Positions 3,369-17,235 of a DNA stretch of 20,368 bases are shown one piece after another. The notes under the pieces are model-generated. The model worked only from the letters and a program-made list of their open reading frames with translations, ran no database searches and was not told the DNA's origin. The DNA comes from a virus, in the IMG/VR virus record IMGVR_UViG_3300020474_000168, positions 1 through 20,368 of that record. One strand, 5' to 3'. Positions within the stretch are counted from its first letter, which is position 1; every line of letters starts with the position of its first letter. The translations under genes and the position numbers were made by a program.

Positions 3369-3885
3369 TATCTCAACCTCTATTACAGGGGCAACGGTAA
3401 TTCAGGACGGTAAAATTTTAGAAACAGTTTTTTGGGACACGAGAAACAAAAGAAAGTTCCCCACTTTCTATGAAAAAGCAAAGTTTATTAAAGAAAATAT
3501 CTTGACAATAAGAAACAACTATGATATAAATAATATATACATTGAACAGTCTCTGCATTCGTTTAGGTCGGGATTCTCATCGGCACAAACACTATCAACA
3601 TTATCCAGGTTTAATGGAGTTGTGTCGTGGTTTTGTTTTGAATTGTTTGGGATCCAACCAGAGATGATCGCCGCCACATCAGCGCGCAAACAAGCAGGCG
3701 TAGGAATCAAACGTGGAGACAATGCAAAAGAAAAAGTCTTAGAATTTGTTATTGACAAGTACCCTGATATTGAGATACAATATACAAAACATGGAAATCC
3801 AAAACCAGGCATATTAGATATGTGCGACAGTATTGTAATCGCGTTAGCAGGAGATAAACTTGTCAGAGAAGCTAAAACTACTTAA
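3346..3885 (+). CDS. ruvC: RuvC-like Holliday junction resolvase (179 aa)
   Basis: RNase H-fold nuclease of the RuvC type, expected to cut four-way junctions and other branched DNA. The four acidic residues of E. coli RuvC (D7, E66, D138, D141) have counterparts here: D8 in the first strand (ILGLDISTS), E67 (IYIEQS), and D158/D161 in the last helix (LDMCDSIVIA). The length is close to the 173 residues of E. coli RuvC. The ATG at 3346 lies 23 bases inside the upstream gene; starting here puts the first strand at the very N-terminus, as usual in the family. The 3' end overlaps the primase gene by 26 bases. T4 itself uses the unrelated endonuclease VII (gp49) to resolve branches before packaging, so this enzyme may fill that job. 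Confidence in the fold is high; substrate specificity is inferred. Confidence 0.85.
   Translation: MQTILGLDISTSITGATVIQDGKILETVFWDTRNKRKFPTFYEKAKFIKENILTIRNNYDINNIYIEQSLHSFRSGFSSAQTLSTLSRFNGVVSWFCFELFGIQPEMIAATSARKQAGVGIKRGDNAKEKVLEFVIDKYPDIEIQYTKHGNPKPGILDMCDSIVIALAGDKLVREAKTT
3849..3854 (+). promoter_or_regulatory. Ribosome binding site deciding a TTG start (primase)
   Basis: AGGAGA lies five bases before the TTG at 3860, inside the end of the resolvase gene. No ATG or GTG occurs in this frame before the zinc-finger cysteines, so this site and the TTG are the best start for the primase. Confidence 0.65.
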
Positions 3886-4777
3886 GAAAGCCCTCGGCCG
3901 TTGCTGGTCTAATGATGACGAACATCAGTTTCACTGCCCAAAGTGCAATCACCACAAACTAAAGTTATCAGTTAATATAGAAAAAGATGTATTCAAGTGT
4001 TGGATATGTGATTACTCTGGCACAAAGATATCTCCGCTTATCCGCAGGTTTGCACCGGCTTACTACGCAGACTGGCGTAGCCTGGCTGGGGAGGTTGACC
4101 TTTCAAAGTATGATACTATTTTTGCTGAGCACGTACCCGAACCACCACAGATTATTGATCTACCAGAGAACTTCCAAACACTAACAGGTAAAAAGACAAG
4201 ACTTAAAAAGCGAGCCCTTAAATACCTTTACTCCCGCGGCTTTACAGATAGAGACATACTAACTTGGAAGATTGGCTTCTGTGACTATGGAGAATATCAG
4301 GATAGGATTATCATCCCAAGCTTCGACGATGATGGCAACGTTAATTTCTTTGTGGCAAGATCATATACGGACGACTGGATGAAATACAAGAACCCAAGAG
4401 TCAGCAAGGATATTATCTTCAACGACCTTAACATCGACTGGGACGATGATGTGATTCTGGCCGAGGGCGTGTTCGATGCAATGAAATGTAAAAACGCTGT
4501 GCCACTACTCGGTTCAACTCTGAGAGAGAACTCAAGATTGTTTCAGAAGATATGCGAACGCAAGCCGGATGTGTACTTGGCGCTCGACGAAGATGTTAAA
4601 GGAAAAGAGTTCGGGATAGCAAAGAAACTAAGAGAATATGGTATTAAAGTTATGTCTATTGATGTCAGCGGCTATTCAGACATCGGAGAGATGCCACAAG
4701 AGGTGGTAGAAGAGCGAAAACAAAATGCGGATATTGTATCGGATTTAGACTATTTACATTACAAACTTGATTTTTAG
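3860..4777 (+). CDS. DNA primase, zinc finger plus TOPRIM (gp61/DnaG-like, 305 aa)
   Basis: Makes RNA primers for lagging-strand synthesis, working with a replicative helicase that is not in this window. Residues 26-50 carry a CHC2-type zinc ribbon with four cysteines (C26, C29, C47, C50; contexts HCPKCN and KCWICD). The centre has the DnaG-type block around LTWKIGFCDYGEYQDRIIIP. The TOPRIM domain follows with E202 (VILAEGVFDAMK) and the metal-binding acidic pair D243/D245 (LALDEDVKG). Length is similar to T4 gp61 (about 340 residues), and no helicase domain is fused. Translation starts at a TTG with a strong SD and overlaps ruvC by 26 bases, so coupled expression is likely. Stop TAG at 4775-4777; a small gene follows nine bases later. 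Alternative: a DNA-binding TOPRIM protein with another role, but the zinc ribbon plus TOPRIM order is characteristic of primases. Confidence 0.88.
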   Translation: MSEKLKLLKKALGRCWSNDDEHQFHCPKCNHHKLKLSVNIEKDVFKCWICDYSGTKISPLIRRFAPAYYADWRSLAGEVDLSKYDTIFAEHVPEPPQIIDLPENFQTLTGKKTRLKKRALKYLYSRGFTDRDILTWKIGFCDYGEYQDRIIIPSFDDDGNVNFFVARSYTDDWMKYKNPRVSKDIIFNDLNIDWDDDVILAEGVFDAMKCKNAVPLLGSTLRENSRLFQKICERKPDVYLALDEDVKGKEFGIAKKLREYGIKVMSIDVSGYSDIGEMPQEVVEERKQNADIVSDLDYLHYKLDF

Positions 4778-4786
4778 GAGACCAAA

Positions 4787-4957
4787 ATGGAACTTACAAA
4801 AAGAAGACTAAAAGAAATCATCGCAGAAGAGATGAACCACTTAGCAGAAACAGGCGACCTTAATATGATCACCGAAGCAGAGAAGAAAGCATTCGAGATT
4901 ATTCTTGAAAAGCTTACACCAAAGCAACTTGAAAATCTCGGCCTTAAAAGAATTTAG
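4787..4957 (+). CDS. Small protein with capsid-targeting-like leader (56 aa)
   Basis: ATG preceded by TTTTAGGAGACCAAA, a good SD that overlaps the upstream stop; TAG at 4955-4957. The protein is helical and charged. Its first 21 residues (L8, I11, I12, E14/E15, L19-A20-E21) resemble the N-termini of the genes at 4961 and 16572. L19-A20-E21 and I28-T29-E30 both fit the L/I-x-E cleavage consensus of T4 gp21-type prohead proteases. I infer that it may be a prohead core or internal protein. Outside that leader I recognise no family; the remainder (EAEKKAFEIILEKLTPKQ) looks like two amphipathic helices. Alternative: an unrelated small regulatory protein with a chance helix. Confidence 0.65.
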   Translation: MELTKRRLKEIIAEEMNHLAETGDLNMITEAEKKAFEIILEKLTPKQLENLGLKRI

Positions 4958-4960
4958 TCT

Positions 4961-5554
4961 GTGAAGAAATCAGAACTAGAGCAAATTATCAAAGAAGAGA
5001 TTCGAGCGGTTTTATTCGAATCTGACCCTAAGCGAAGACTCGGGCAGAATTGGTTTCAAAGAAATTTCACTCCGGATGATTCTTTAGCTCTAGGTATGCC
5101 CCCCGGTATTGGCAACCTTGCGAAAGCAGCATCAGCTCTTTTTAAAGGAACAAAAGCGACCAAGGCAGCAAAAGTGCTAAAGCCAACTAGAAGGTTGTCT
5201 CTCGCACAGAGAAACTTGTTTTCCAGAATTAAGACTGACAAAATAGAAATACACACACCAACACTTGACAAGCTGGGTAGACTTGGTAAACCCGTGGCGA
5301 CAAAGCCATCGGCCGATCAGCTTGCCAAAGTCGAAGGGGTTATAAGAAAAACCATGGATCATCATTCAAAAGGTAGGTACGAGTTTTTTGAAGATGCACT
5401 AAGAGCCAACCTGGTCCCAAAATTACCAGTACCAAAGACTGTAACAGGTGAGTTTGCAAACGCTACGGTTACCTTACAAAGGGTTCAGGGTAAAGAGTTG
5501 GATATCATAGCTAGAATAGTTAAGGCTCCGCCTGCACCACCAAGCCAATTTTAA
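4961..5554 (+). CDS. Basic protein with capsid-targeting-like leader (197 aa)
   Basis: Starts at GTG 4961, three bases after the upstream stop; no strong SD is seen, so reinitiation is likely. The GTG is supported because the product then begins MKKSELEQIIKEEIRAVLFE, nearly the same as the start of the gene at 16572. Residues 18-20 (L-F-E) followed by S21 fit the gp21-type cleavage consensus. The remainder is strongly basic and Ala/Lys/Pro-rich (PKRRLGQNW, FKGTKATKAAKVLKPTRR, KPVATKPS) and ends in a Pro-rich tail (APPAPPSQF). Positive charge and lack of signal peptide or membrane segment suit a DNA-associated protein packaged inside the capsid, as T4 internal proteins are. That is inference; no enzymatic motif is recognised. 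It ends 75 bases before the 47/46 gene, with a promoter in between. Confidence 0.7.
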   Translation: MKKSELEQIIKEEIRAVLFESDPKRRLGQNWFQRNFTPDDSLALGMPPGIGNLAKAASALFKGTKATKAAKVLKPTRRLSLAQRNLFSRIKTDKIEIHTPTLDKLGRLGKPVATKPSADQLAKVEGVIRKTMDHHSKGRYEFFEDALRANLVPKLPVPKTVTGEFANATVTLQRVQGKELDIIARIVKAPPAPPSQF

Positions 5555-5570
5555 AAGTTTGTGAAATAAC

Positions 5571-5599
5571 TTGACAGTCCTTCTAAATTCTGCTATACT
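5571..5599 (+). promoter_or_regulatory. Strong sigma70-type promoter before the 47/46 fusion gene
   Basis: TTGACA (5571-5576, perfect -35), a 17-base spacer, and TATACT (5594-5599, five of six match to the -10), with a TG at 5591-5592 that makes an extended -10. The transcript would begin near 5606, giving a leader of about 24 bases that contains the GGAG ribosome binding site at 5621-5624. It should be read by unmodified host RNA polymerase, so the downstream recombination gene is probably expressed early or middle, unlike the late structural genes. Confidence 0.85.
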
Positions 5600-5629
5600 T
5601 AAATCACAATAACCATTTACGGAGAATAA

Positions 5630-8600
5630 ATGAGATTTGCTCATATTGCGGATACCCACATCCGAAATCTAAAATATCACTTCGAATACAAAGAGGTATT
5701 CAAACAACTATATAAATCATTAAAAGAAGAAAAAGTGGATTATATTATCCACTGCGGAGATATCGCACACACAAAGACACAGATATCGCCAGAGTTTGTT
5801 GACATGTGTAGAGACTTCTTTCAGAACCTTGCTTCCATCGCCCCAACCTATATTATTTTAGGTAATCACGACGGCAACCTACGTAACGGTTCAAGACAGG
5901 ATGCCCTGTCCCCTATTGCAAAAGCCATCAATGACCCTAATCTTATTTTGCTTAAGAACGCCGGCGAAGCAAGGATCGATGATAAATTTTGTTTGAATGT
6001 TTTGTCTGTCTTTGATGAAGACAATTGGGTGGAACCATCTGACTACGATTCGGTTAACATTGCTCTGTATCATGGCGCTATCAACAAATCAAAAACAGAT
6101 AGTAACTGGACACTAGGCGGAGATCACGGTATTGAAATCTTTGAGGAGTTTGACTTTGGTTTTCTTGGAGATATTCACAAAACTCAACAGCTGGACAGCG
6201 AAGGCCGCATTTGGTATGCAGGTTCAACAGTCCAGCAGAACTTTGGAGAGACTTTGGACAAAGGCTATTTGCTTTGGGATATTGAAAGCAAAGATCAGTT
6301 TACTACTAGACTTATTACTTTTGACAACCCAAAGCCTTTCGTTACGCTTACGTTGAGCGAGAAGGGTAATTTGCCTAGAGCGAAGCCACCAGAGGGCGCA
6401 CGTCTTCGTATTGTGTCTGAAAGCAATGTGTCGCTAGACAAAGTCCGCAAGGCCGTAGACATTGCAAAATATAGGTATAACCCAGAGTCGGTAACTTACC
6501 TCAACAGAGCCGCCGGTAAACAAATTAAGGTTGCTGCACCTGAAGGTTTAGAAAAACAAGACCTACGCGACTTGAAAACGCAAGAAGCTCTAATAGCCGA
6601 GTACCTAAAAGAATATGAAGCAACTGAAGAGGTGCTTGAAAAAGTTTATGAATTGAATAAGCAGTTCAATAAACAAATCGAAGAAAACGAAGATGTCATG
6701 CGAAATGTTAACTGGTCGCTTCAAAGTTTAGAATGGGACAACTTATTCAATTATGCAGAAGGCAACACCATCGACTTTACAAAGCTAGAAGGTATTGTTG
6801 GCATATTTGGAAAGAACTATTCAGGTAAGTCTTCTATTGTGGATACATTGCTTTACTCTATGTACAACTCTACATCTAAATCGATCCGTAAGAATCTGAA
6901 TATCATAAACCAGAATAAAGACGAATGTGTCGCTACAGCAACAATTAAGGTTGATGGAACAGACTATATCATCGAGCGCAAGTCTAACAAGTATACAAAG
7001 CGCCTAAAGGGTGTTGAGACTCAAGAGGCAACAACTGACCTAGAGTTTTATTCACAAGACGCCATTGGCAACCACACAGGTTTAAATGGTACCTCTAGGC
7101 AAGATACTGATAAGAATGTAAGAAAGTACTTTGGCACATTGCCAGATTTTCTGGCAACCTCAATGGCTTCTCAGTTGGACTCTTTGTCATTTATCAATGA
7201 AGGCTCAACTAAGAGAAAAGAGTTTCTAGCAAAGTTTTTAGACCTAGAGATCTTTGATAAGAAGTTCAAGATGGCAAAAGAAGCCTCTGCTGAAATAAAG
7301 GTGTCATTAAGGCGCCTAGAGGGTATTGACTTTGATGCAAATATTAAAGATATCAAGACAGAGATTACTAAAGGTGAACTTGCGATTGAGAAAAATAAAG
7401 CAATTTGCACCTCCCTCAAAGAAGAGATGGCAGAGTTAGCACAAGAGGTTAGTCTCTTGGAAGATAAGATATCTTCTGTCCCTGCAGAAATTATTGACCC
7501 TGTTTTGACGGCCAACAAAATAACACAAAAAGAAAAATCCATATTACAAATAAATGCCAAGAAAACGAATGCACAAAAAAACATTGATGAAAATAAAACC
7601 AAGTATGAAAAAATTGAAGACTTTTTAAGGGCCTTTGAAATTGAAAAGTATAAGGAAAAGAAAGAGTCTTTTACAAAAGTCAATGACGAATTGAATAAAT
7701 TAATTTTACTTTTAGAAAGTTTATCTTTGCAAAAAAGCTTACTAGTAACAGAACAAGATAAAGTCTGCACAAGTTGTCACCCACTTATTGGGGAAACCAT
7801 TAAATCAAAAACAGAAGAAATATCCTCAGTTGTACAAAATATCAATACCATAGGTGATGAAATTTCACATGAAGAGATGACCAAGGTAGATAAGTACATA
7901 GACAAATACAATGCTCTAATTGAAAAAAGAGACAATCTTGCAAACTCAATAACGACTAGCAATTTAATTATCGAACGAGCAGACAGCATGCTGTTCAAGG
8001 AGCAGGTCGAACTTGATGATCTTAAAAGCAAAGCTACAGAATATGAAAAAAACAAAGAAGCAATTGAAAACTTAAAACAATTAATATCATACAAAGAGAA
8101 ATTAGAAAAACAGTCTGAAGATAAAGAACAAGAGATGAATTTGTGTGAACAAAAAATTATGCAACTACACAAAAGGCACGGGTCTTCGGAGCAGAAGCTA
8201 TCACACACCCAAGAACAACAGCAAGAGTTTCGTGAACTAGAGCAAAATTTTGCTGCATATCATCTTTTTATGGTTTGTTGTCATCCAAATGGTGTTTCTT
8301 ATGAGATCATTAAAGAGAGGTTACCTTACATTAATCAAGAGATATCCAAGATATTGACCAATATTGTGGAGTTTGAAGTCTTCATATCTAATAACGAGGA
8401 TAAGTTAGATATCTTCATTAAGCACCCTAGTCATGATCCTCGCCCATTGGAGATGGGATCTGGAGCAGAGAAGACTATTGCAAGTATGGCAATACGTTTA
8501 GCTTTTTTAACAGTGTCCAGTTTACCAAAGTCTGACCTATTTATACTTGATGAGCCGGGAACTGCTCTCGATGAAGAAAATATGGAAGGCTTTGTACGCA

Positions 8601-8728
8601 TCTTAGATATGGTCAAGGGCTACTTCAAAACTGTTCTTCTCATTTCTCATCTAGATAGTCTAAAAGACTGTGTAGATATGCAAATAAATATCGAGAAAAG
8701 AAACGGCTATGCACACGTAAGCATATAG
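5630..8728 (+). CDS. Fused SbcD/Mre11-like nuclease and SbcC/Rad50-like ATPase (gp47-gp46 fusion, 1032 aa)
   Basis: One polypeptide carries both subunits of the Mre11-Rad50 / SbcCD / T4 gp47-gp46 complex, which resects DNA ends for recombination-dependent replication. The N-terminal metallophosphoesterase (about 1-340) has D8/H10 (IADTHI), G43-D44 (HCGDIAH), G78-N79-H80-D81, H148 (LYHGA) and a GDIH motif ending in H183. The ATPase half follows. Walker A is G394-S401 (GKNYSGKS). Two long coiled coils flank a zinc-hook C713-T-S-C716. The signature is near 942-948 (MGSGAEK), Walker B is L970-E975 (LFILDEP), and the H-loop is H1007. The zone ~320-380 is a charged helical linker (EYLKEYEATEEVLEKVYELN), where a stop and restart would be expected in T4. 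Start ATG with GGAG SD; stop TAG at 8726-8728. All motifs appear intact, so it should be active. It has its own promoter just upstream. Confidence 0.93.
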   Translation: MRFAHIADTHIRNLKYHFEYKEVFKQLYKSLKEEKVDYIIHCGDIAHTKTQISPEFVDMCRDFFQNLASIAPTYIILGNHDGNLRNGSRQDALSPIAKAINDPNLILLKNAGEARIDDKFCLNVLSVFDEDNWVEPSDYDSVNIALYHGAINKSKTDSNWTLGGDHGIEIFEEFDFGFLGDIHKTQQLDSEGRIWYAGSTVQQNFGETLDKGYLLWDIESKDQFTTRLITFDNPKPFVTLTLSEKGNLPRAKPPEGARLRIVSESNVSLDKVRKAVDIAKYRYNPESVTYLNRAAGKQIKVAAPEGLEKQDLRDLKTQEALIAEYLKEYEATEEVLEKVYELNKQFNKQIEENEDVMRNVNWSLQSLEWDNLFNYAEGNTIDFTKLEGIVGIFGKNYSGKSSIVDTLLYSMYNSTSKSIRKNLNIINQNKDECVATATIKVDGTDYIIERKSNKYTKRLKGVETQEATTDLEFYSQDAIGNHTGLNGTSRQDTDKNVRKYFGTLPDFLATSMASQLDSLSFINEGSTKRKEFLAKFLDLEIFDKKFKMAKEASAEIKVSLRRLEGIDFDANIKDIKTEITKGELAIEKNKAICTSLKEEMAELAQEVSLLEDKISSVPAEIIDPVLTANKITQKEKSILQINAKKTNAQKNIDENKTKYEKIEDFLRAFEIEKYKEKKESFTKVNDELNKLILLLESLSLQKSLLVTEQDKVCTSCHPLIGETIKSKTEEISSVVQNINTIGDEISHEEMTKVDKYIDKYNALIEKRDNLANSITTSNLIIERADSMLFKEQVELDDLKSKATEYEKNKEAIENLKQLISYKEKLEKQSEDKEQEMNLCEQKIMQLHKRHGSSEQKLSHTQEQQQEFRELEQNFAAYHLFMVCCHPNGVSYEIIKERLPYINQEISKILTNIVEFEVFISNNEDKLDIFIKHPSHDPRPLEMGSGAEKTIASMAIRLAFLTVSSLPKSDLFILDEPGTALDEENMEGFVRILDMVKGYFKTVLLISHLDSLKDCVDMQINIEKRNGYAHVSI

Positions 8729-8736
8729 GAGGATTT

Positions 8737-8937
8737 ATGGTGGCACGACTAAAAGCATTCGCGGACAAATATACAGAGAGATTTATCTCTCGTAAGTTTC
8801 TAGCATGGATTACAGCAACTGGTCTCTGTGTATATGGAACAGTAACTAGTGGAGATTGGGTGGCAGTCACTCTCGCTTATATTGGATCCCAAGCACTTGT
8901 TGACCTTGCAGTGCAATGGAAACATGGAAAACAATGA
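8737..8937 (+). CDS. Small two-helix membrane protein, holin-like (66 aa)
   Basis: Start ATG behind an excellent SD (AGGAGGA at 8727-8733). After a basic amphipathic N-terminus (residues 1-20) come two hydrophobic segments, about 21-37 (LAWITATGLCVYGTV) and 42-60 (VAVTLAYIGSQALVDLAV), joined by a short TSGDW turn, then a charged tail (WKHGKQ). Small size, two membrane helices and a charged C-terminus are typical of phage holins, which form the membrane lesion that starts lysis. No endolysin lies in the window, so the assignment rests on architecture and on the two membrane/coiled-coil genes that follow. Its stop overlaps the next ATG (ATGA at 8934-8937). Alternative: an inner-membrane protein of unknown function. 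Confidence 0.6.
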   Translation: MVARLKAFADKYTERFISRKFLAWITATGLCVYGTVTSGDWVAVTLAYIGSQALVDLAVQWKHGKQ

Positions 8938-9320
8938 TTCAGCTTAGGATTGCTTGGCTCTGGGTGAAGAAGAACTGGAAAGCAACAGCCTTAGTTGTTT
9001 GGTCTATTTTCGTTTGGCTTATATCGAGAAAGAATTCGCAAGGAGCAATCGATGCAATGAACGCAAATAAGGAATCTTATGAAGCTCAGATTAAGTCCTT
9101 AAAAGTTCAGCACAAGATTGAGGTGCAAAAAAGAGAAGAACTTCACTTAAAATATCAAGAAACTCTTGTTAAAATAGAAGAGAAATATAAGAAGAAGAAA
9201 GAAGAACTCTCAAAAGTAGAGAAGAAAAAAGTAAAAGAGATAGTGCAAAAAGCAAAGGATAACCCTGATGAAATTAACAAGAAAATTGAAGACCTGTTTG
9301 GTTTTAGTTCTGATTCTTAG
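8934..9320 (+). CDS. Membrane-anchored coiled-coil protein, i-spanin-like (128 aa)
   Basis: I place the start at ATG 8934, which overlaps the previous stop as ATGA; an in-frame ATG at 8916 would add six residues and has a poorer upstream context. The product has one N-terminal hydrophobic segment (about residues 14-30, ATALVVWSIFVWLI) followed by a long Lys/Glu-rich coiled coil through most of the protein and a short tail (FGFSSDS). One N-terminal anchor plus a coiled coil is the plan of inner-membrane spanins such as Rz, which help break the outer membrane during lysis. Its 3' end overlaps the next gene by 53 bases in a different frame, as i-spanin and o-spanin genes often do. Spanins diverge quickly, so no sequence identity is claimed. 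Confidence 0.6.
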   Translation: MIQLRIAWLWVKKNWKATALVVWSIFVWLISRKNSQGAIDAMNANKESYEAQIKSLKVQHKIEVQKREELHLKYQETLVKIEEKYKKKKEELSKVEKKKVKEIVQKAKDNPDEINKKIEDLFGFSSDS

Positions 9321-9702
9321 CTTTACATCACTTTCACTGGCGACTCCGGGAAAATATGCCCGATTAAAGAAGGGTGAAAAGATACCTTGGTCAGGCTGGT
9401 GTTTTGATAGTGAAGCAATGGCACAGATTGTTGCAGAAAAAGAGTTAGCAGAGCAGAAGTGTGAACTCCACACTATGCAAGAATTGGATCAGCAGAAAGC
9501 AAAGTTTGACCTACAAATTGGACAACTGACAGCATCTATGAATTATGAAATTGAAACCAGAGACGCAACCATTGAAGCACTTAAGGAAGAGAACTTAAAA
9601 ATAGAAAACGCATTAATTCATGAACAGAAATTTGGATGGCTAGCACCAGCCTCCATTGGTATCATTGTGGGCGCTTTATCAATATTTTTGGTAACACTAT
9701 GA
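9268..9702 (+). CDS. Signal-peptide protein with coiled coil and C-terminal membrane helix (144 aa)
   Basis: Start ATG 9268, with AAGGA eight bases upstream, nested in the 3' end of the preceding gene (53-base overlap). Residues 1-25 are a clear signal peptide: basic start, hydrophobic core (LVLVLILSFTSL), and S-L-A at 23-25 as a likely signal peptidase I site. No lipobox cysteine follows; C10 sits inside the hydrophobic core. Next comes a short motif (KGEKIPWSGWCFDSEA) and a coiled coil at ~54-118 with two cysteines (C45, C64). A C-terminal hydrophobic segment lies at ~122-144. A signal or anchor at one end and a membrane helix at the other resembles unimolecular spanin-type topology or an inner-membrane partner of the preceding protein. 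The function is inferred from architecture and neighbours only. Confidence 0.6.
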   Translation: MKLTRKLKTCLVLVLILSFTSLSLATPGKYARLKKGEKIPWSGWCFDSEAMAQIVAEKELAEQKCELHTMQELDQQKAKFDLQIGQLTASMNYEIETRDATIEALKEENLKIENALIHEQKFGWLAPASIGIIVGALSIFLVTL

Positions 9703-10070
9703 AAAATAAAGATTTAAATGAGATAGCGAAGATAGAAAATGCTATAAAAGAAAAGTATGGTGAAGAGGCTATTCAGAATCCTAAAGGATCTTGGAACAAA
9801 GAAAAGGAAGCTAAATACCTAGAAGAACTCAAATCTTTTTATAAAAAAACGTCTAGGAAAAAGAAGACTGAAAAGATAGGAGATATTTTAATCAAAAAGA
9901 AGAAAGGCAATCACCAATCTAAAAGAAGCTGCCCAGTTTGTGGTTCATATTCTTTTTCAGCAGCAGACGATCTTTACATGACAAAGTTTGATTGCTGTTT
10001 TGATTGCTATGTTCAGTATATAGAAGGAAGAGAAGAGCGCTGGAAATCCGGCTGGAGACCAAAGAACTAA
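9699..10070 (+). CDS. Zinc-ribbon protein upstream of terminase (123 aa)
   Basis: Start chosen at ATG 9699 because it overlaps the previous stop as ATGA; an in-frame ATG at 9636 lies deep in the upstream gene. The N-terminal two thirds is a lysine-rich helical region (KTSRKKKTEKIGDILIKKKKG). The C-terminus has a zinc ribbon: CPVC at about residues 78-81, then CCFDC about 20 residues later, closing with EGREERWKSGWRP. I have an impression that this tail block recurs in T4-like marine phages, but I know of no assigned function. Position just before the terminase and a basic, zinc-binding character suit a DNA- or RNA-binding packaging or transcription factor; this is inference. Not obviously a gp16 small terminase, which has no zinc ribbon. 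Confidence 0.65.
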   Translation: MKNKDLNEIAKIENAIKEKYGEEAIQNPKGSWNKEKEAKYLEELKSFYKKTSRKKKTEKIGDILIKKKKGNHQSKRSCPVCGSYSFSAADDLYMTKFDCCFDCYVQYIEGREERWKSGWRPKN

Positions 10071-10097
10071 CTATTTATTAATAGCAAACTATTTATT
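10071..10097 (+). promoter_or_regulatory. Repeated CTATTTATT element, possible phage late promoter
   Basis: CTATTTATT occurs twice in the 46-base gap (10071-10079 and 10089-10097), and again at 17973-17981 before the scaffold gene, the other large gap in the head module. Its reverse complement AATAAATAG resembles the TATAAATA-type late promoter box of T4-like phages, but on the strand opposite to the genes. It could be a variant late promoter or processing site, or simply AT-rich spacer. Confidence 0.3.
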
Positions 10098-10116
10098 GCA
10101 AGAGGAAATTAAAACT

Positions 10117-10602
10117 ATGGCAACAACTTTAGAAATTATAAACGGTATCTCACAGGTACTTGCTAACACATACGATGGCGCACTCGACGAGTCCGGCGAG
10201 CCAGTAAAGGTTGGCTTGAGAAGGGAGGAGGGGAACCCACTAGTCGATCACCGCATCATAGATGGCTTTGGAGCACACATTAGTGGTGATCGTTTGCATA
10301 TTAAGTATCACGCAGAGATACCACTTAAAGAAGTTCACTCAAATGGTTTTGAAGGAGAGATGGAGTCAATGGTAGAGAAGGTAAAGTCCTTTATACAGAA
10401 GGAATATAAAAAGGTAACTAAGTCTTCTCTTTCTCTCTCAGACCCAAGCGAGGTTGATGTTTTGGTTGAATATATCTCTCGGATTCGGTGTAGTGTAAAA
10501 GTACATAAGTGCTATTCAATTAGTGGTATACCAACAGAACCAGAAAAGGAAATAAACCCAGAATTTGAAAAATTTACTCAACTTAGCGGCCTGAAGTCGT
10601 AA
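10117..10602 (+). CDS. Conserved-looking phage protein of unknown function (161 aa)
   Basis: Start ATG 10117 with AGAGGAAA upstream; a TTG at 10096 in frame would add seven residues but lacks a comparable SD. The protein begins MATTLEIINGISQVLANTYDGAL and contains a GLRREEGNPLVDHRIIDGFG block, a beta-rich middle (ISGDRLHIKYHAEIPL), a helix (EGEMESMVEKVKSFIQKEYKK) and a final beta/loop region. No signal peptide, membrane helix, zinc site or catalytic motif. It lies nine bases before the large terminase, where T4 has gp16 (small terminase). It does not have the expected helix-turn-helix plus central coiled coil of a small terminase, so I leave the function open. A neck, tail-completion or packaging role is possible. 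It may be the first gene of a late transcript starting in the gap before it. Confidence 0.7.
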   Translation: MATTLEIINGISQVLANTYDGALDESGEPVKVGLRREEGNPLVDHRIIDGFGAHISGDRLHIKYHAEIPLKEVHSNGFEGEMESMVEKVKSFIQKEYKKVTKSSLSLSDPSEVDVLVEYISRIRCSVKVHKCYSISGIPTEPEKEINPEFEKFTQLSGLKS

Positions 10603-10610
10603 GAGGGTAC

Positions 10611-12197
10611 ATGCCAATAAAGCTTACCAAGCAAGAAATCATGAAGGAAATTGTCCGCTGTGGCAAGAAACCTGAATATTTTATCCACACTTACGCAAAG
10701 ATAACACATCCAATGAAAGGGTTGATACCTTTTCACCTGTACCCCTTTCAGGAACAGTTGTTAGAAGACTTCGAGGATCATCGGTTTAATGTAATTCTTA
10801 AGGCGAGACAGTTGGGTATTTCAACTATCACTGCAGCTTATGTGGCTTGGATGATGATGTTCCATCGAGAAAAAAATGTTCTTGTGATTGCAACAAAATT
10901 CAACACTGCAGCCAACTTAGTTAAAAAAGTAAAGGCAATAATAAAGAACTTACCACAATGGCTAAGGATTTCAAATGTGGACATAGATAATAGAACTAGC
11001 TTTGTACTTTCAAATGGATCGCAAATTAAAGCTTCTTCAACATCTGGCGACGCCGGCCGTTCAGAAGCTTTGTCATTGTTGGTTATAGACGAAGCAGCAC
11101 ATGTTGAAGGTTTAGACGAATTGTGGATGGGTCTTTACCCTACCCTGTCTACTGGTGGTCGATGCATCGCCTTGTCGACGCCAAATGGTGTTGGCAACTG
11201 GTTTCATAAGGTATACACTGAAGCCGATAGTAAGTTAAATGATTTTTTTCCAACAAAGCTCGCATGGCAAGTACACCCAGATAGAGATATACAGTGGTTT
11301 GAGAAAGAAACACGTAATATGTCAAAAAGAGAAATTGCGCAAGAGCTAGAGTGCAACTTCAATATGTCTGGAGAAACAGTGTTTTCTTCTGATGACATGG
11401 ATATATACCGAAACCTTGTTAAGGATCCAAAGTATAGAACTGGTTTTGACAGGAATTTGTGGATATGGGAAGAAAAGCAACCCAATAATACTTATCTACT
11501 GTCAGCAGATGTCGCGCGAGGCGATGGTAAAGACTATTCAGTCTGTCATGTTTTTAAATTAGAAACTATGGAGATTATAGCAGAATATAGGGGCAAATGC
11601 ACACCAGATGTGTTTTCTAGAGTTTTGTTTGATATGGGCCAAGAGTATGGTAACGGTCTTTTGGTCGTTGAAAATAATTCAGTCGGCTTCGCGGTTTTGG
11701 ACAAGCTGAAAGAAATGAGATACCCAAACCTTTACCACTCAGTAAAATCAACTCATGAATTTGTAGAAGAATATCAAGCAGATCAGATGTCTAATGCGGT
11801 GGTTGGTTTTTCTATGACTTCCAAAACAAGACCTCTAATAGTCGCTAAGATGGAAGAATTCATTAGAAATAATCTAATTAAGATATATTCCACTAGATTA
11901 TTAGGTGAAATGGCAACTTTTGTATGGAATAATGGTAGAGCAGAAGCAATGCGTTCTTACAATGACGACTTGATAACCGCCTGCGCAATTGGTTGTTGGG
12001 TTAGGGATACAGCACTTGCAGTCAACGAGAGGGAAGCAGAATACGCAAAAGCTTTTGTCGGAGCTATAACAAAGTCGACAAATGAATTAGACACAAGAAT
12101 AAATGGAATGATAGGAACCAGAAAATTAAAGATGAATGATGAAATTAATAAGCACCATAAAACATCGATTGATTTTCCCTGGTTGTTTAAGGGATAA
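10611..12197 (+). CDS. Terminase large subunit (gp17-like, 528 aa)
   Basis: ATP-driven packaging motor and headful nuclease. The ATPase domain has an atypical Walker A (K64-A-R-Q-L-G-I-S-T72), the gp17-type KARQLG form, and Walker B with D160-E161 (LLVIDEAAHV). Coupling motif III is at LSTPNG. The C-terminal RNase H-like nuclease shows D300 (SADVARGDGKD), E354 (VVENNS) and D452/D453 (YNDDLITA), matching the three-acid active site of T4 gp17. Length is somewhat below the 610 residues of T4 gp17, as expected without its N-terminal extension. Start ATG with AGAGGG upstream; stop TAA at 12195-12197, three bases before the portal gene. It docks on the portal encoded next door. No clear small terminase is found in the window. 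Confidence 0.95.
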   Translation: MPIKLTKQEIMKEIVRCGKKPEYFIHTYAKITHPMKGLIPFHLYPFQEQLLEDFEDHRFNVILKARQLGISTITAAYVAWMMMFHREKNVLVIATKFNTAANLVKKVKAIIKNLPQWLRISNVDIDNRTSFVLSNGSQIKASSTSGDAGRSEALSLLVIDEAAHVEGLDELWMGLYPTLSTGGRCIALSTPNGVGNWFHKVYTEADSKLNDFFPTKLAWQVHPDRDIQWFEKETRNMSKREIAQELECNFNMSGETVFSSDDMDIYRNLVKDPKYRTGFDRNLWIWEEKQPNNTYLLSADVARGDGKDYSVCHVFKLETMEIIAEYRGKCTPDVFSRVLFDMGQEYGNGLLVVENNSVGFAVLDKLKEMRYPNLYHSVKSTHEFVEEYQADQMSNAVVGFSMTSKTRPLIVAKMEEFIRNNLIKIYSTRLLGEMATFVWNNGRAEAMRSYNDDLITACAIGCWVRDTALAVNEREAEYAKAFVGAITKSTNELDTRINGMIGTRKLKMNDEINKHHKTSIDFPWLFKG

Positions 12198-12200
12198 ATA

Positions 12201-14207
12201 ATGGCACAAAAAAAGAATAAGAACAACACAAGAAACCCACAGAGTTTGTTATTCAGAAGATTGACAAGACTCTTATCTGGACCAGTAACACAATACAGGA
12301 CACAAAATAACCACAGGCTAAGAAGAATAGACCTTGATAGGTACGCCGGCAAATTCACATCAGCCTCCGGTAAAGACTTTAAGAAGACTGCATACAACCC
12401 GTATGATAACTTACAGTCAGGATATATGGCCTCACAACAGAGAACAGAAAGATATGTAGACTTTGACCAGATGGAGTATACACCAGAGATAGCTTCTGCA
12501 CTAGATATTTATGCAGATGAGATGACAACTTATTCTTCATTGTCACCAATGCTATCAATAGAATGTGAAAACGAAGAAATAAAGGCTATACTGCACTCTC
12601 TTTATACAAACGTATTAAACATAGAGCATAACTTGTTCTCTTGGTGCAGGACAATGTGTAAATATGGAGATTTTTTCTTGTATCTGGATCTAGATGAAAA
12701 ACTAGGGATAACTTCTGTTATCGGTTTACCCACACAAGAAATAGAAAGATTGGAAGGTGAAGACAAAACAAATCCAAACTATGTACAATTTCAGTGGAAC
12801 TCCGCAGGAATGACTTTTGAGAATTGGCAACTTGGACACTTTCGAGTTCTAGGACAAGATAAATACAGTCCATATGGCACATCAGTTCTTGAGCCAGCTA
12901 GACGCATATGGAGACAACTTACATTACTTGAAGATGCAATGATGGCATATAGAATTGTTCGATCACCTGAACGCCGCGCATTCTATATTGATGTTGGTAA
13001 TATACCTCCTCAAGATGTTGAGCAGTATATGCAGAAAGTTATGACAACCATGAAAAGAAATCAAGTTGTCGACGCAAGTACAGGGCGCGTAGATCTAAGG
13101 TACAATCCTCTTTCGGTAGAGGAGGATTATTTTATTCCTGTCCGCGGCCAAAGTTCAACTAAAATTGAGCCTATAGCTGGAGGTAAGTATACTGGAGATA
13201 TTGACGATGTAAAATACCTTAGAGATAAGCTATTTTCAGCCCTAAAGATTCCTGCGGCTTATATATCTTCAGACGCTGATAAGGCAGTAGAAGATAAGAC
13301 TACTTTAGCGCAGAAAGATATTCGTTTCGCGAGGACAATTCAGAGACTACAGAGATCCATGATTACAGAGATTGAAAAAATTGGAATGATTCACCTTTAC
13401 ACTTTGGGTTATCGGGAAGAAGATCTAGTATCCTTCAAGTGCAGACTGAACAACCCTTCAAAGATCGCTGAAATGCAAGAATTGGAACACTGGAAAACAA
13501 GGTTTGACATAGCAGGAGCAGCAACAGAAGGCTTCTTTTCTAAGCAGTGGTTAGCAAGGACTCTGTTTGGTTTGTCCGATGAAGAATTTATAAGAAATAG
13601 AAGAGAGATGTTCTACGATAAGAGATTTGAAGCCGCTCTTGAAACTGTTGGAGAGGTAGAGCAAGCAGAATTGACAGCTGGCTTAAATGCGGGTACAGAT
13701 GATTTAGACATTCAGCAGGACACTGACCTCGGAGGAACTGGAACGGTCGGAGCAGAGCCAGAACTCGGCGCACCAGCAACCCCAGACCCCGCGGCCGCTC
13801 TAGGGGGCGCCCCGACTGGCGCCGGCGCAACACCTGCTCCTGAGGAGGGAGATCTATTGGCAGCCCCGCCTGGAAAAAGGGAAGATAAGAAGGGCAGGAC
13901 TACCACCGCTAAGTCTCACGGATGGTATGAGCCGAGAGGCCTAAGCGCCGGCGGCGATAGAAGAAAAACCTCCGGCCCTAGAAAGAAAAATATGACAAGA
14001 GCTGCTAGCCCTGAGGTTAACACAACAAGAAAAAACTTCCCAGGAATGGGCGAGTTGACTAGTTTGGCGAAAGCTACTAGTATTTACGAAGCCAAAGGAA
14101 CTAATTATAAAGCAGAGGAGTCTAAAATTCTTAAGGAACAGAAAGAATTAGAAGCCTTGTTTAAAAGCCTAGAAGAGAGGGAAAAAAAGAATGAGACTGA
14201 AACATAA
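12201..14207 (+). CDS. Portal protein (gp20-like, 668 aa) with long C-terminal extension
   Basis: Forms the dodecameric ring at the special vertex through which DNA enters and on which the head is nucleated. Residues ~70-500 show gp20-type features: QRTERYVDFDQMEYTPEIASALDIYADE, the WCRTMCKYGDFFLYLD block, FRVLGQDKYSPYGTSVLEPARR, YRIVRSPERRAFYIDVG and the DDVKYLRDKLFSALKIP / EDKTTLAQKDIRFA region near the crown. T4 gp20 has 524 residues; here ~160 extra residues follow. They include a Pro/Ala/Gly-rich linker (~510-560) coded by unusually GC-rich DNA, a basic stretch (KSHGWYEPRG, DRRKTSGPRKKN), and a charged helical end. I628-Y629-E630|A631 fits the gp21 cleavage consensus. Start ATG after AAGGGATAAATA. 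The 3' end overlaps the next gene by 17 bases. Confidence 0.93.
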   Translation: MAQKKNKNNTRNPQSLLFRRLTRLLSGPVTQYRTQNNHRLRRIDLDRYAGKFTSASGKDFKKTAYNPYDNLQSGYMASQQRTERYVDFDQMEYTPEIASALDIYADEMTTYSSLSPMLSIECENEEIKAILHSLYTNVLNIEHNLFSWCRTMCKYGDFFLYLDLDEKLGITSVIGLPTQEIERLEGEDKTNPNYVQFQWNSAGMTFENWQLGHFRVLGQDKYSPYGTSVLEPARRIWRQLTLLEDAMMAYRIVRSPERRAFYIDVGNIPPQDVEQYMQKVMTTMKRNQVVDASTGRVDLRYNPLSVEEDYFIPVRGQSSTKIEPIAGGKYTGDIDDVKYLRDKLFSALKIPAAYISSDADKAVEDKTTLAQKDIRFARTIQRLQRSMITEIEKIGMIHLYTLGYREEDLVSFKCRLNNPSKIAEMQELEHWKTRFDIAGAATEGFFSKQWLARTLFGLSDEEFIRNRREMFYDKRFEAALETVGEVEQAELTAGLNAGTDDLDIQQDTDLGGTGTVGAEPELGAPATPDPAAALGGAPTGAGATPAPEEGDLLAAPPGKREDKKGRTTTAKSHGWYEPRGLSAGGDRRKTSGPRKKNMTRAASPEVNTTRKNFPGMGELTSLAKATSIYEAKGTNYKAEESKILKEQKELEALFKSLEEREKKNETET

Positions 14208-15018
14208 CAAAAAAAGAAACACTGCATTTGTTTTCGAGGCCCTTGTGAGAGAACTCACAGAGTCAGTGGTTAAAAATAACAAGAACAAACAGAATAAGAT
14301 TGTTTCTATTTTAAAGGATCATTTTACTAATAACTCTATCCTAAAGGAGGAGTTGGGACTTTACAAGTCAATTTACGAAACAAGACATATTGAAAAAAAC
14401 ATAGCAGAAAAAATCGTCTACCAAGTTAAAGAGAGGCATGATTCTTTGGACAAGAAGAAACTTTTTCAAGAACAAAGCGCGCTCATAAACAAAATTAACA
14501 GAACCTTATCATCAAAAGTTTACAGTAATTTTGTACCAAATTACAAAACAATAGCATCAGTTTACTCTATTTTTCAAGAAGCTTTGCCCGTTAAGGATAG
14601 GGTACTGTTAGAGGAAAACATAATAGATCAAATGTCAGCTTCTGTCGAAACTACACAAGAGCAGCAACAACAACCTATAGACTCTTTAGTTTATAGTACT
14701 TTTGTCACAAAGTTCAATGAAGAATATTCAGAGTCTTTAAATGAAAACCAGAAACAACTTTTAAACAATTATATATCTTCATTTGACGACAACGGCCTGG
14801 AGCTTAAAATTTATCTAAATGAAGAGATAGGTAGATTAAAAGAAGAGCTTAGTAAAGTAAATAAAAACAATACAGATAATCCTGAGTTTAAAGAAAAGAT
14901 AAGCAGTATTTACTCTATTTTGGAAAATACAAAAAATAAAGAAATAGATACGGAAACTTTAGAAATTGTCTTAAATACTCAACAACTACTTGAAGAGATG
15001 GGAAAAAATGACGATTAA
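14191..15018 (+). CDS. Head-module protein in the gp67/gp68 position (275 aa)
   Basis: ATG 14191 overlaps the portal gene by 17 bases, with GAGAGGG as SD. The N-terminus is basic (MRLKHNKKRNTAFVFEALVRELTES), and the body is almost entirely charged helix with Asn, Lys and Glu. It has a Q-rich patch (TTQEQQQQP) near residue 155 and a C-terminal helix ending QQLLEEMGKNDD. No signal, membrane or catalytic motif is seen. In T4 the prohead core genes 67 and 68 lie between portal and protease, and this gene sits in the same place. A core or portal-associated assembly role is therefore a reasonable inference, but I see no sequence match to gp67 or gp68, both of which are much shorter or differ in composition. 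Confidence 0.7.
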   Translation: MRLKHNKKRNTAFVFEALVRELTESVVKNNKNKQNKIVSILKDHFTNNSILKEELGLYKSIYETRHIEKNIAEKIVYQVKERHDSLDKKKLFQEQSALINKINRTLSSKVYSNFVPNYKTIASVYSIFQEALPVKDRVLLEENIIDQMSASVETTQEQQQQPIDSLVYSTFVTKFNEEYSESLNENQKQLLNNYISSFDDNGLELKIYLNEEIGRLKEELSKVNKNNTDNPEFKEKISSIYSILENTKNKEIDTETLEIVLNTQQLLEEMGKNDD

Positions 15019-15550
15019 TGTTAATATAGAACTTGATCCTAGGATAGAGCTTAAAGCTAGGAGAACTATGGATGGCAATATCTTGATCTTAGATCATGAA
15101 GACATGGACATAGTTCTTATGACTGAAAAGAATAAGTGTGTAACTTTCCCCAAGGAATCAATGTCTGACAGAGTTTATCATTCGCAGGACAGGATGTTCA
15201 AGTTTTTGGCAAAAAAGGGATTGATAGAAAGATCTAGCATTAAGGGTGGAAATGTTTTTGGCTCCTTAGAGGCGGAGATGCTTGAATCTAAAATCCCTGG
15301 TATAAACAGAGACCAAGCCTTTCTTTATTCTATTCACGAATACTTAACCGGTGAAAAACCATACTTTAAGTCAGCATCAGAATTTGACGATGAGCGTTTG
15401 GATGCGATGTTAAGACCAGATCCTGAAGATTCAACAGAGTTGGGCGATGTACCTCAATCGGCAAATAAGGGTTCAATGAACTCTCGCATACGCCCTTATG
15501 GATACATGTACAATTATTCGCTTATCAGAGAAGAAAGCGAGGATAAATGA
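15008..15550 (+). CDS. Head-module protein of unknown function (180 aa)
   Basis: I choose ATG 15008, which overlaps the previous gene by 11 bases and gives MTINVNIELDPRIELKARRTMDG; an in-frame TTG at 14990 would add six residues without a better SD. The N-terminal third is beta-rich (DGNILILDHEDMDIVLM, NKCVTFPKES). The middle has a helical segment (DRMFKFLAKKGLIERSSI), and a block NVFGSLEAEMLESKIPGINRDQAFLYSIHEYL follows. The C-terminal tail is acidic, then Arg/Tyr-rich (RIRPYGYMYNYSLIREES). I recall similar proteins near the protease gene of marine T4-like phages but no function. The stop overlaps the next start as ATGA, so the two are translationally coupled. Confidence 0.7.
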   Translation: MTINVNIELDPRIELKARRTMDGNILILDHEDMDIVLMTEKNKCVTFPKESMSDRVYHSQDRMFKFLAKKGLIERSSIKGGNVFGSLEAEMLESKIPGINRDQAFLYSIHEYLTGEKPYFKSASEFDDERLDAMLRPDPEDSTELGDVPQSANKGSMNSRIRPYGYMYNYSLIREESEDK

Positions 15551-15867
15551 ATTTTATATGGTTTTGCCTAGTTTCATATGGCTTGACTCAAATCCTAGTT
15601 TACGGTAAGATACTAGATCCCATTCGTCCAACTAAGGGCAAATTCGGAGAACTATTTAAATGTCCCATGTGCACCGGCTTTTGGGTTGGAGTATTTTTAT
15701 GGTTCGTAAAGGACTACACACAACTAATTAATTTTGATAATTCTTTTATCACTTGCCTGTTGTTGGGCTTTGCAAGCTCGGCAGCTGCCTATATCGGCGG
15801 TATGGTGTTCGGTGATGATGGAATTAGAATTGAAAAAAAAGTTTTTATAGAAAGGGATGAGCAATGA
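15547..15867 (+). CDS. Small membrane protein with CPMCxGFW motif (DUF1360-like, 106 aa)
   Basis: ATGA overlap with the upstream gene. Residues ~1-20 form a hydrophobic N-terminal segment (FIWFCLVSYGLTQILVY). A soluble turn follows with a CxxC motif in FKCPMCTGFWVGVFLWF that leads into a second membrane helix. A third hydrophobic stretch lies at ~65-88 (FITCLLLGFASSAAAYIGGMVFG). The C-terminus is charged (RIEKKVFIERDEQ). The CPxCxGFW arrangement before a membrane helix is typical of the small DUF1360-type membrane proteins of phages and bacilli, whose role is unknown. In a head gene cluster it might tether proheads to the inner membrane, where T4 proheads assemble; that is speculation. The stop overlaps the ATG of a 22-residue reading frame. 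Confidence 0.7.
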   Translation: MNFIWFCLVSYGLTQILVYGKILDPIRPTKGKFGELFKCPMCTGFWVGVFLWFVKDYTQLINFDNSFITCLLLGFASSAAAYIGGMVFGDDGIRIEKKVFIERDEQ

Positions 15868-15932
15868 ATATCTTAACAGACAATAAGAAATGGAAACTTC
15901 AGCCGGTTCGTAGATGTTGCACTGGCAAATAG
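15864..15932 (+). CDS. Possible mini-gene of 22 residues
   Basis: ATG 15864 overlaps the preceding stop as ATGA, the same coupling used by true genes nearby, and runs to TAG at 15930-15932. The product (MNILTDNKKWKLQPVRRCCT...) is basic with a CC pair. It fills most of an otherwise empty 99-base gap before the protease gene. It may be a real micropeptide, a coupling leader that carries ribosomes towards the protease, or chance. Confidence 0.3.
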   Translation: MNILTDNKKWKLQPVRRCCTGK

Positions 15933-15936
15933 ATGA

Positions 15937-15953
15937 TGCGGGTGGTCCCCGCA
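15937..15953 (+). other. Stem-loop before the protease gene
   Basis: TGCGGG and CCCGCA form a six-base-pair, mostly GC stem around a five-base loop (TGGTC). It lies directly before the AGAGGAA ribosome binding site of the protease gene. There is no T-run after it, so it is not a typical intrinsic terminator. It may affect mRNA processing or the protease translation rate. Confidence 0.4.
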
Positions 15954-15966
15954 ATAGAGGAACGTT

Positions 15967-16575
15967 ATGAAACTTATAAGAGAGTACTATGAATTGTGTG
16001 ATGGCGGCACCTGCCAAGATCTTCTCACAGAAGCAGAAAAGAGAGAAGTTGCCGAAGGCGCCATGTATTTGAGTGGTTGTATGCAAAAGTGTAATACCAA
16101 AAATGCCAACGGCAGAATCTACGAAAAGAAAACTCTTTTCAGAGAGGTAGATAGATACAAGGATTTAGTAAAAGCTCGAAGAGCCCTAGGGGAATTAGAC
16201 CACCCAGAAAGTTCAGTTATATCCTTGGAGAGATGCTCTCATATGGTTACAGAAATTTGGACGGACGGCGATGACGTCATGGGTAAAATAAAAGTTCTGC
16301 AAGAACTACCTATGGGCTCGGTCTTAGCAGGCCTTATAAAAGAAGGCGTAACATGTGGGATCTCTTCTAGAGGTACAGGTTCAATAAGAGAAGAAAACGG
16401 AACAACAATGGTGGAAGATGACTTTTCACTTATTTGTTTTGATATGGTTTCGGACCCTTCCACCCCAGGCGCCTTTATGTTACGTGAGGCAAGAGAAATA
16501 TACAACAATGGCAAAGGTGACACAAATGTTGATAGGATTATTGACAGAATGTTAGATAAGTACGGAGCAAAATGA
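15967..16575 (+). CDS. Prohead core serine protease (gp21-like, 202 aa)
   Basis: Matures the prohead by degrading scaffold and trimming capsid and core proteins after L/I-x-E. The sequence shows the assemblin-like fold marks of this family: NANGRIY near residue 49, the catalytic histidine in GELDHP (H79), and the nucleophile region GISSRGTG (S133/S134). A conserved block DFSLICFDMVSDPSTPGAFM follows. Length is close to T4 gp21 (212 residues). L20-T21-E22|A23 near the N-terminus is a plausible self-cleavage site. Start ATG with AGAGGAA upstream; the stop overlaps the next gene as ATGA, so the enzyme is coupled with a likely substrate. Which of S133 and S134 is the nucleophile I cannot settle from sequence alone. 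Confidence 0.92.
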   Translation: MKLIREYYELCDGGTCQDLLTEAEKREVAEGAMYLSGCMQKCNTKNANGRIYEKKTLFREVDRYKDLVKARRALGELDHPESSVISLERCSHMVTEIWTDGDDVMGKIKVLQELPMGSVLAGLIKEGVTCGISSRGTGSIREENGTTMVEDDFSLICFDMVSDPSTPGAFMLREAREIYNNGKGDTNVDRIIDRMLDKYGAK

Positions 16576-16988
16576 AGAAGTCGGAATTAAAAAATATTAT
16601 AAAAGAATGCGTTAAAGAAGTTCTTTTTGAGGAGGGCGTCCTGTCGAATCTTGTAGCAGAGGTTGCATTTGGCATCACCAAAGCACAAGGAACATTGACA
16701 GAAGCAAAGCAGCCAATGCAGAATCCAGCAGTTTTACAGGAAGCCAGAGAACAAGAGCAAGAATCTAGAAGAAAGAAGCTTCTTGAGACAAAAAGAAAGA
16801 TGCTCGATGCAATGGGTAATTCTAAGTTAGCAAACGCATTTGAAGGAACGAAGCCCCTAAAAGAGGGCGGATCACCAGGAAAGGTTAGTCCACAATCACC
16901 ACTCGCAGGAAGAGATCCTAATGATGCAGGTGTAGATATTAGTGGGTTGTTCAGTGTTGCAGGCGCAAAATGGAACGCTCTAAAGTAA
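16572..16988 (+). CDS. Internal/core head protein with capsid-targeting-like leader (138 aa)
   Basis: ATGA overlap with the protease gene and an SD (GGAG) at 16564-16567. The first 20 residues (MKKSELKNIIKECVKEVLFE) nearly repeat the start of the distant gene at 4961, although the rest of the two proteins differs. L18-F19-E20 is a candidate gp21 cut site, and L42-T43-E44|A45 (TLTEAK) is a second. The middle is a long charged helix (QEAREQEQESRRKKLLE), and the tail is Gly/Pro-rich, ending DISGLFSVAGAKWNAL. It lies where T4-like phages have core genes. I infer a prohead core or internal protein that is processed during maturation. It is not a recognisable gp67 or gp68 homologue by eye. Confidence 0.75.
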   Translation: MKKSELKNIIKECVKEVLFEEGVLSNLVAEVAFGITKAQGTLTEAKQPMQNPAVLQEAREQEQESRRKKLLETKRKMLDAMGNSKLANAFEGTKPLKEGGSPGKVSPQSPLAGRDPNDAGVDISGLFSVAGAKWNALK

Positions 16989-16998
16989 AGGAGTTATA

Positions 16999-17235
16999 AT
17001 GAGCAAAGGAAAACCATGTCACGTTGAAATCGTGATTCACGATCAGAATCAAGTAGAGAGGATGATCAAAAAGTTTACAAGAAAATGCAAAAAGCAAGGG
17101 CTTTTTGAAGAATTAAGAGAGAGACGATATTTTAAAAAGAAGTCTCAAAAAATGAAAGAAAAACGGGAAAATAAAAAGAGGTTGTCCCAAAAATCAACCC
17201 AAAAGCATAAAGATAAATTTAACAAGTTTGATTAG
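16999..17235 (+). CDS. rpsU: Phage-encoded ribosomal protein bS21 homologue (78 aa)
   Basis: Small, very basic protein. Residues ~19-47 (VERMIKKFTRKCKKQGLFEE then LRERRYFKKK) align without gaps to the core of bacterial bS21, whose E. coli sequence there includes [25 protein letters not shown]. Shared features are the K/R-F-x-R-x-C-x-K-x-G start and the R-x-R-R/E-Y/F-x-K end, and both have a Lys/Arg-rich helical tail. Length is close to E. coli bS21 (71 residues), with a short N-terminal strand (HVEIVIHDQNQ). bS21 sits on the 30S platform near the anti-SD end of 16S rRNA and supports initiation. Strong SD (AAAGGAG) before ATG 16999; the next gene's SD overlaps its stop. Phage bS21 copies are known in marine phages; the effect on host translation is not settled. 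A generic basic nucleic-acid-binding protein is the main alternative. Confidence 0.82.
   Translation: MSKGKPCHVEIVIHDQNQVERMIKKFTRKCKKQGLFEELRERRYFKKKSQKMKEKRENKKRLSQKSTQKHKDKFNKFD

Follow-up and report, generated by a model that had tools for sequence, protein, structure and literature searches.

What does a short leader do when it is shared by small proteins that are otherwise unlike each other? The question is raised by a T4-like phage fragment, the IMG/VR record IMGVR_UViG_3300020474_000168, which was analyzed as a whole (20,368 bases; hereafter the window). An earlier note described three open reading frames (ORFs) in it, starting at 4787 (ORF A), 4961 (ORF B), and 16572 (ORF C), that resemble each other only at a basic, helical N-terminus ending in L-x-E, and proposed that this leader targets diverse cargo to the prohead. 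The positions, frames, and residues reported for the three leaders are all correct.

The leader is likely to be a capsid-targeting tag, that is, a modular N-terminal sequence with a gp21-type cleavage site which loads cargo into the phage head. Comparison of the sequences establishes a module of 17-20 residues, apparently helical, that hundreds of small T4-like phage proteins, otherwise unrelated, have in common and that ends in [LI]-x-E. This N-terminal tag is phage-specific, its end is a prohead-protease-type site, and the cargo joined to it is interchangeable.

A modular N-terminal leader in T4-like phages

A DNA pattern fixing only residues 1-13 of the leader (MKKxxLxxIIKEE) was used to scan IMG/VR. 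At least 120 stretches matched, and a permuted decoy pattern had no match in the same scan. In 85,000 bacterial and archaeal genomes, the pattern was found in only five contigs. Three of them belong to one bin, and their matches are tagged ORFs resembling the phage ones; one contig shows a chance match in an acyl-carrier-protein-like sequence. The counts of leaders, frames, and cargo clusters given below are those among the matches listed of the IMG/VR scan.

The 128 distinct leaders were selected on residues 1-13 alone. The positions left free are nevertheless conserved: S4 (87%), E5 (67%), Q8 (64%), I14 (71%), L18 (67%), and E20 (68%). Conservation ends after residue 20, and the sequence beyond is random. 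The motif [LIVMF]-x-E is present at residues 17-24 in 109 of the 128 leaders, compared with 39 ± 5 in shuffles. L-x-E is found at three spacings, with the last residue at Glu17, Glu19, or Glu20. The alignment of 143 tagged proteins gives the consensus MKKSELxQIIKEEIxxxLxE and no consensus beyond it.

A window-free profile found 437 start sites scoring at least 10 bits across the fetched loci; ~3 Mb of shuffled DNA gave none, and neither did a profile with its columns permuted. Profile matches are near a start codon in 567 cases and elsewhere in 83, the latter mostly weak, which indicates the N-terminal location of the module. Clustering of the distinct tagged frames, 358-362 in number, by their cargo gives ~227 groups. 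With so many unrelated cargo groups and such a sharp stop at residue 20, the sharing of the leader by unrelated small proteins was understated when it was first noticed. Single loci contain up to nine tagged genes, many of them in tandem (e.g., L102, L052, and L113). A 159-kb relative of the window has eight long-tag matches, the weakest of which is doubtful, and a 140-kb leader-rich phage has nine.

The tag is encoded with wide synonymous variety. All six Ser codons are used at S4 and all six Leu codons at L6, and the tags of one locus have differing codons at 30% of identical residues. Because codons vary freely at conserved residues, selection on the tag acts at the protein level.

Scans of the tagged cargo with Pfam, PHROG, and PADLOC gave isolated, mostly weak matches, and no common function can be named. 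The earlier note took a match of the leader profile to many clearly cytosolic enzymes as evidence against capsid targeting. When this was checked, nearly all tagged cargo lacked a Pfam match, and the bacterial scan gave the five contigs above. Neither ORF C nor the 20-residue leader by itself had a tblastn match in the phage isolate collection, and no report of the tag sequence was found in the papers searched. Two loci are described here for their cargo. L094 has a tandem family of tagged leucine-rich-repeat proteins (LRR_4, 5.9e-25). At L454:151-728, near a contig end, two tagged genes adjoin each other, and the cargo opens with the very basic run KRKKRKKKKKKK.

Cargo junctions and capsid maturation sites

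For the tagged cargo of L081 (P0001), IMG/VR contains ~30 homologs, and most of them can be aligned only downstream of the tag. Upstream, these homologs have the long tag, a shorter one of 10 residues (form MIKLIDLLNE; hereafter the short tag), or the interior of a long frame. In 22/22 distinct cases read, the cargo junction consists of [LIM]-x-E and then G, A, or S. In the alignment of 22 homologs, the junction Glu (Glu20) is invariant.

The same alignment shows conserved His-Tyr, Ser-x-Thr-Arg, and Glu, which are of the kind expected in ADP-ribosyltransferases (ARTs). The protein model of L081 has a helix at residues 3-20, a low-confidence linker at residues 21-23, and then a confident folded domain. 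From residue 19-21 onward, this domain matches the structures of DarT and Tpt1 (VIA Z 10-11.6), and Foldseek matched it to a tRNA 2'-phosphotransferase (4.8e-4). The model thus predicts an ART fold for the cargo. The match of the cargo to PF15633 has an E-value of 0.0056, short of the curated cut-off.

With the short tag as the pattern, 68 sequences from 39 cargo groups were found, compared with 2-9 when the Glu was exchanged or moved; some of the 68 are long tags to which the pattern applies as well. A zeta-toxin-type kinase (2e-12) is among the short-tag cargoes. The loci L440:2901-3404 and L439:629-1423 encode short-tagged proteins of this zeta-toxin kinase type and of a nucleotidase-like type (NT5C, sub-threshold).

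In the capsid proteins of these phages, 33 distinct maturation sites were identified by alignment. Their P1 residue is Glu in 33/33 and their P3 residue is L, I, or V in 32/33. The predicted maturation site in gp23 of the window is between ELLRE and ASS, after Glu59 (codon 19443-19445). The maturation sites assigned in this way bear the same motif as the tag end. A gp21-type protease and an L-x-E capsid site are present in the same phage, as is expected if the leader is a capsid-targeting sequence (CTS).

ORFs A, B, and C and their surroundings

ORF A (4787-4957) encodes a conserved small protein of 56 aa with the leader MELTKRRLKEIIAEEMNHLAE. Its leader-like N-terminus (4787-4849) represents an MKITK-type subgroup. 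ORF B (4961-5554) has a GTG start and encodes tagged cargo of 197 aa with the leader MKKSELEQIIKEEIRAVLFE; its long tag (4961-5020) has a predicted cleavage after Glu20. ORF C (16572-16988) encodes a conserved tagged protein of the head locus with the leader MKKSELKNIIKECVKEVLFE and a long tag at 16572-16631. The last residue of L-x-E is residue 21 in ORF A and residue 20 in both ORF B and ORF C.

With the window-free profile, ORF B scored 45.4 bits, ORF C 33.6 bits, and ORF A 4.8 bits. With a broader profile, ORF A scored 11.0 bits, against 3.6 bits for the best decoy. Over the two profiles, the tag of ORF B has 45 bits and that of ORF C 33.6-36.9 bits. Scanning of related phages with a leader profile, which had been proposed as a check, revealed many tagged frames and placed ORFs B and C far above the decoys. 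On these profile scores, ORFs B and C are clear members of the tag family. ORF A is the weakest of the three and only weakly a member.

ORFs A and B are flanked by the primase gene (3860-4777) and the gp46/47-type SbcCD gene (5630-8728), and the gp21-type protease gene (15967-16575) has its stop codon in an overlap with the start of ORF C. The gene calls, together with their PHROG matches, agree with the earlier observation that one tagged gene adjoins the protease gene and the other two are beside replication genes.

ORF B occupies a variable cargo slot, with ORF A at its left edge and gp46/47 on the right. Fifteen relatives have a conserved ORF A (71-95%). ORF B has only three partial relatives and no full-length one, and its cargo part is absent from all 15 relatives, without similarity anywhere in them. 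In the relatives, the slot is empty or holds another tagged gene, of which there are at least five, and its flanks show 73-93% DNA identity. The cargo gene varies here at a fixed locus, and such slot turnover has been reported for the loci that encode internal proteins in T4-like phages (PMC12373910). ORF B would be an injected accessory protein in this slot; ORF A is a weakly matching conserved neighbor.

The ORF C family has 106 distinct members with a tag-like helix at the start and three conserved [LIM]-x-E sites. They end at Glu20 in 99/106 members (P3 hydrophobic in 99/99), at Glu44 in 95/106, within an otherwise poorly conserved stretch, and at Glu72 in 83/106. The structure model of ORF C is of low confidence (mean pLDDT 69, pTM 0.27). 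ORF C is more reminiscent of a conserved head-core protein than of swappable cargo. It may be a core component cut at several sites, like gp22, gp67, and gp68 of T4, which are core proteins cleaved in this manner (PMC5694885).

There is some chance, although we consider it rather unlikely, that only ORF B is true tagged cargo, with ORF A an independent small protein and ORF C a head-core protein whose leader has a different purpose. ORF A scores only 5-11 bits, and both ORFs A and C are conserved past the site. However, ORF C scores 34-37 bits and its family has [LIM]xE at residue 20 in nearly all members, and even ORF A outscores every decoy. The proposal in the earlier note is correct in kind, and the modular capsid-targeting tag with a gp21-type site is the part best supported by sequence; the inclusion of ORF A is weak, and ORF C is less like swappable cargo than like a core protein.

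The order of the remaining genes was determined by gene calls and PHROG matches. All genes with a PHROG match given below, as well as ORFs A, B, and C with their leaders and the genes for the scaffold and gp23, are on the + strand. The left part contains two unassigned proteins (probably structural), a J-domain-like protein, a RuvC-like resolvase, the DNA primase (phrog_47, 2e-41), ORF A, ORF B, and gp47/gp46 (phrog_77 and phrog_100). The J-domain-like motif protein (2706-3368; LQCHPDKIG) is located between structural and replication genes. In the gp47/gp46-type gene, the equivalents of SbcD (gp47) and SbcC (gp46) lie in a single 1032-aa frame.

The right part contains small genes, the large terminase gp17 (10611-12197; phrog_2, 1.1e-51), the portal gp20 (12201-14207; phrog_213, 3.4e-75), unassigned proteins, the gp21-type prohead protease (phrog_207, head maturation protease, 1.1e-51; motifs LDHPES and GISSRG read from sequence), ORF C, an S21-like gene, an unassigned gene, a gp22-like scaffold gene (18036-19229), and the start of the major capsid protein gene. 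The latter (19269-20368), assigned to gp23 by site alignment, is cut off by the window end. The ribosomal protein S21-like gene (16999-17235) lies within the head cluster, and RpsU is annotated at the equivalent place in Microcystis phage Mel-JY01. The scaffold candidate was assigned by gene order, had no match in the PHROG scan, and has an N-terminus resembling the gene preceding gp23 in Flavobacterium phage immuto. An origin of the tag as a copy of a scaffold segment was also considered. The window gp22 has an internal LEEIIADALKEVLNEE and the Mel-JY01 gp22 has MKKEKLVQLVKEEE. Such internal matches are few and weak, and this origin is speculation.

Probable capsid targeting, its alternatives, and related systems

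Capsid targeting is the best supported function of the leader because the leader is N-terminal only, ends at L-x-E, and precedes cargo that is unrelated and swapped at a fixed locus. It is also best supported because the same cargo is found behind different leaders, always with [LIM]-x-E at the junction, and because the capsid site has the same motif. We infer that the tagged proteins bind the core, are cut by gp21, stay in the head, and are injected. The tag helix would bind the scaffold core during prohead assembly, and the gp21-type protease, encoded beside ORF C, would cleave after Glu. The tag fragment would leave, and the mature cargo would remain in the head alongside the DNA and enter the host at infection.

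Several points weigh against this function. The profile-wide results rest on a DNA pattern scan with at least 120 stretches among the matches listed. About 15% of the IMG/VR leaders have no L-x-E, and the conserved core IIKEE also conforms to [LI]xE, at residue 12, where the real cut could be. The gp21 gene is present in 11/13 leader contigs of at least 100 kb and in 6/10 control contigs; this linkage is uninformative because the control contigs carry gp21 comparably. T4-type late promoters are slightly enriched upstream of tagged genes, which AT content could explain, and no clear late-promoter motif was seen before gp23. The low score of ORF A and the conservation of ORFs A and C past the site count here as well. 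Among cultured relatives, immuto has a short tag on protein 40 and three clear long tags on immuto26A_176, 177, and 191. Two of the long tags are near the primase, which is also the arrangement in the window, and all three are without L-x-E near residue 20. Mel-JY01 has the same head gene order and no clear tags. No virion proteomics or N-terminal data on tagged proteins were found.

The immuto tags, the amphipathic residue pattern, and the location of two of the three window genes beside replication genes would also fit a helix that is not removed and that docks onto some other partner in the phage or the host (e.g., a tail, membrane, or replication complex), with L-x-E only capping the helix. 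Such a role is improbable: L-x-E is kept at three spacings, it recurs in the different short tag, where exchange of the Glu abolishes the pattern, and it is present at every cargo junction whatever the upstream part. Shared ancestry, in which the tagged genes are recent duplicates with fast-diverged or frameshifted cargo and a leader that retains no function, is suggested by the tandem tagged arrays but is very improbable, because conservation of the tag protein with free synonymous change, even between tags of one locus, contradicts it, and the cargo groups are unrelated and the same cargo is found both tagged and untagged.

Capsid targeting may extend beyond single tagged proteins. The long frames of the relatives (600-1370 residues) contain shuffled modules, which are cytidylyltransferase-like, ART-like, SET, and DUF6267. 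The motif [LIVMF]-x-E is within four residues of module edges on 42% of sides, compared with 18% at random positions, although the edges are from BLAST and fuzzy, and many events are related. The enrichment of prohead-protease-type sites at module boundaries is suggestive only. Long frames (450-1370 aa) with [LI]-x-E at many junctions are seen at L390, L391, L397-L406, and L435-L446, and in immuto26A_183 (L292:9131-11854); their modules, again in shuffled order, are cytidylyltransferase-like (NadR-like), ART-like, SET, HExxH-type, and ligase-like. No report of phage polyproteins or polyvalent proteins cut by a prohead protease at such sites was found in the papers searched. It is quite possible, and we propose it tentatively, that T4-like phages of sea and lake use one cut code, [LI]-x-E, in a two-tier delivery: 20- and 10-residue tags on single effectors, plus long frames from which the prohead protease would free the modules within the head.

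The CTS of T4 has 10 residues, its processing is determined by residues 8 and 10, and the unrelated internal proteins share only this leader (PMC9026906, PMC12373910). The tag described here is similar to the CTS of T4 IPI-III, which is removed by gp21: both are short N-terminal propeptides on otherwise unrelated small proteins, with an [LI]-x-E end, a gp21-type protease, and variable slots (PMC9026906, PMC3012670, PMC12373910). Unlike the T4 CTS, the tag here has ~20 residues and another sequence, is accompanied by the second, 10-residue class, and has a predicted role in packaging. It is also joined to hundreds of cargo groups, with up to about nine tagged genes per genome, some of them in tandem. 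By eye comparison, the short tag has the length and the hydrophobic-x-Glu end of the T4 CTS, whereas the long tag differs.

Enzymes in phage heads offer further comparison. The head-packaged Alt of T4 is an ADP-ribosyltransferase (PMC9026906). The L081 cargo is similarly a predicted ART-type enzyme with an N-terminal propeptide (7 residues in Alt) whose removal is predicted. Unlike Alt, it has a predicted DarT/Tpt1-like fold of ~115 residues and follows more than one kind of leader. In phages and conjugative elements, polyvalent proteins are multidomain and are proposed to enter the host (PMC5512222). The long frames resemble them in joining several enzyme domains, including ART, in one phage polypeptide (PMC5512222). 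Unlike polyvalent proteins, which are believed to use a metallopeptidase of their own, they have boundaries apparently enriched in prohead-protease-type sites. In SPN3US and phiKZ, the prohead protease also strips N-terminal propeptides from ejected head proteins, but these propeptides are mostly >100 residues, with A-x-E or S-x-E sites and no shared short tag (PMC5694885).

T4 internal proteins proved to inhibit type IV restriction enzymes (PMC12373910). If the tag described here is truly a capsid-targeting signal, hundreds of uncharacterized small genes would become testable candidates for injected counter-defense or host-takeover proteins. To our knowledge, most accessory proteins of marine phages are without a known function. 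The tag would serve as a sequence key predicting which uncharacterized phage proteins reach bacteria at the onset of infection. Capsid targeting by a CTS, which is familiar mostly from T4 and related phages, would be much wider, with two tag classes and a very large interchangeable cargo. If the modules of the long frames are released as proposed, this would represent a viral polyprotein strategy in phage.
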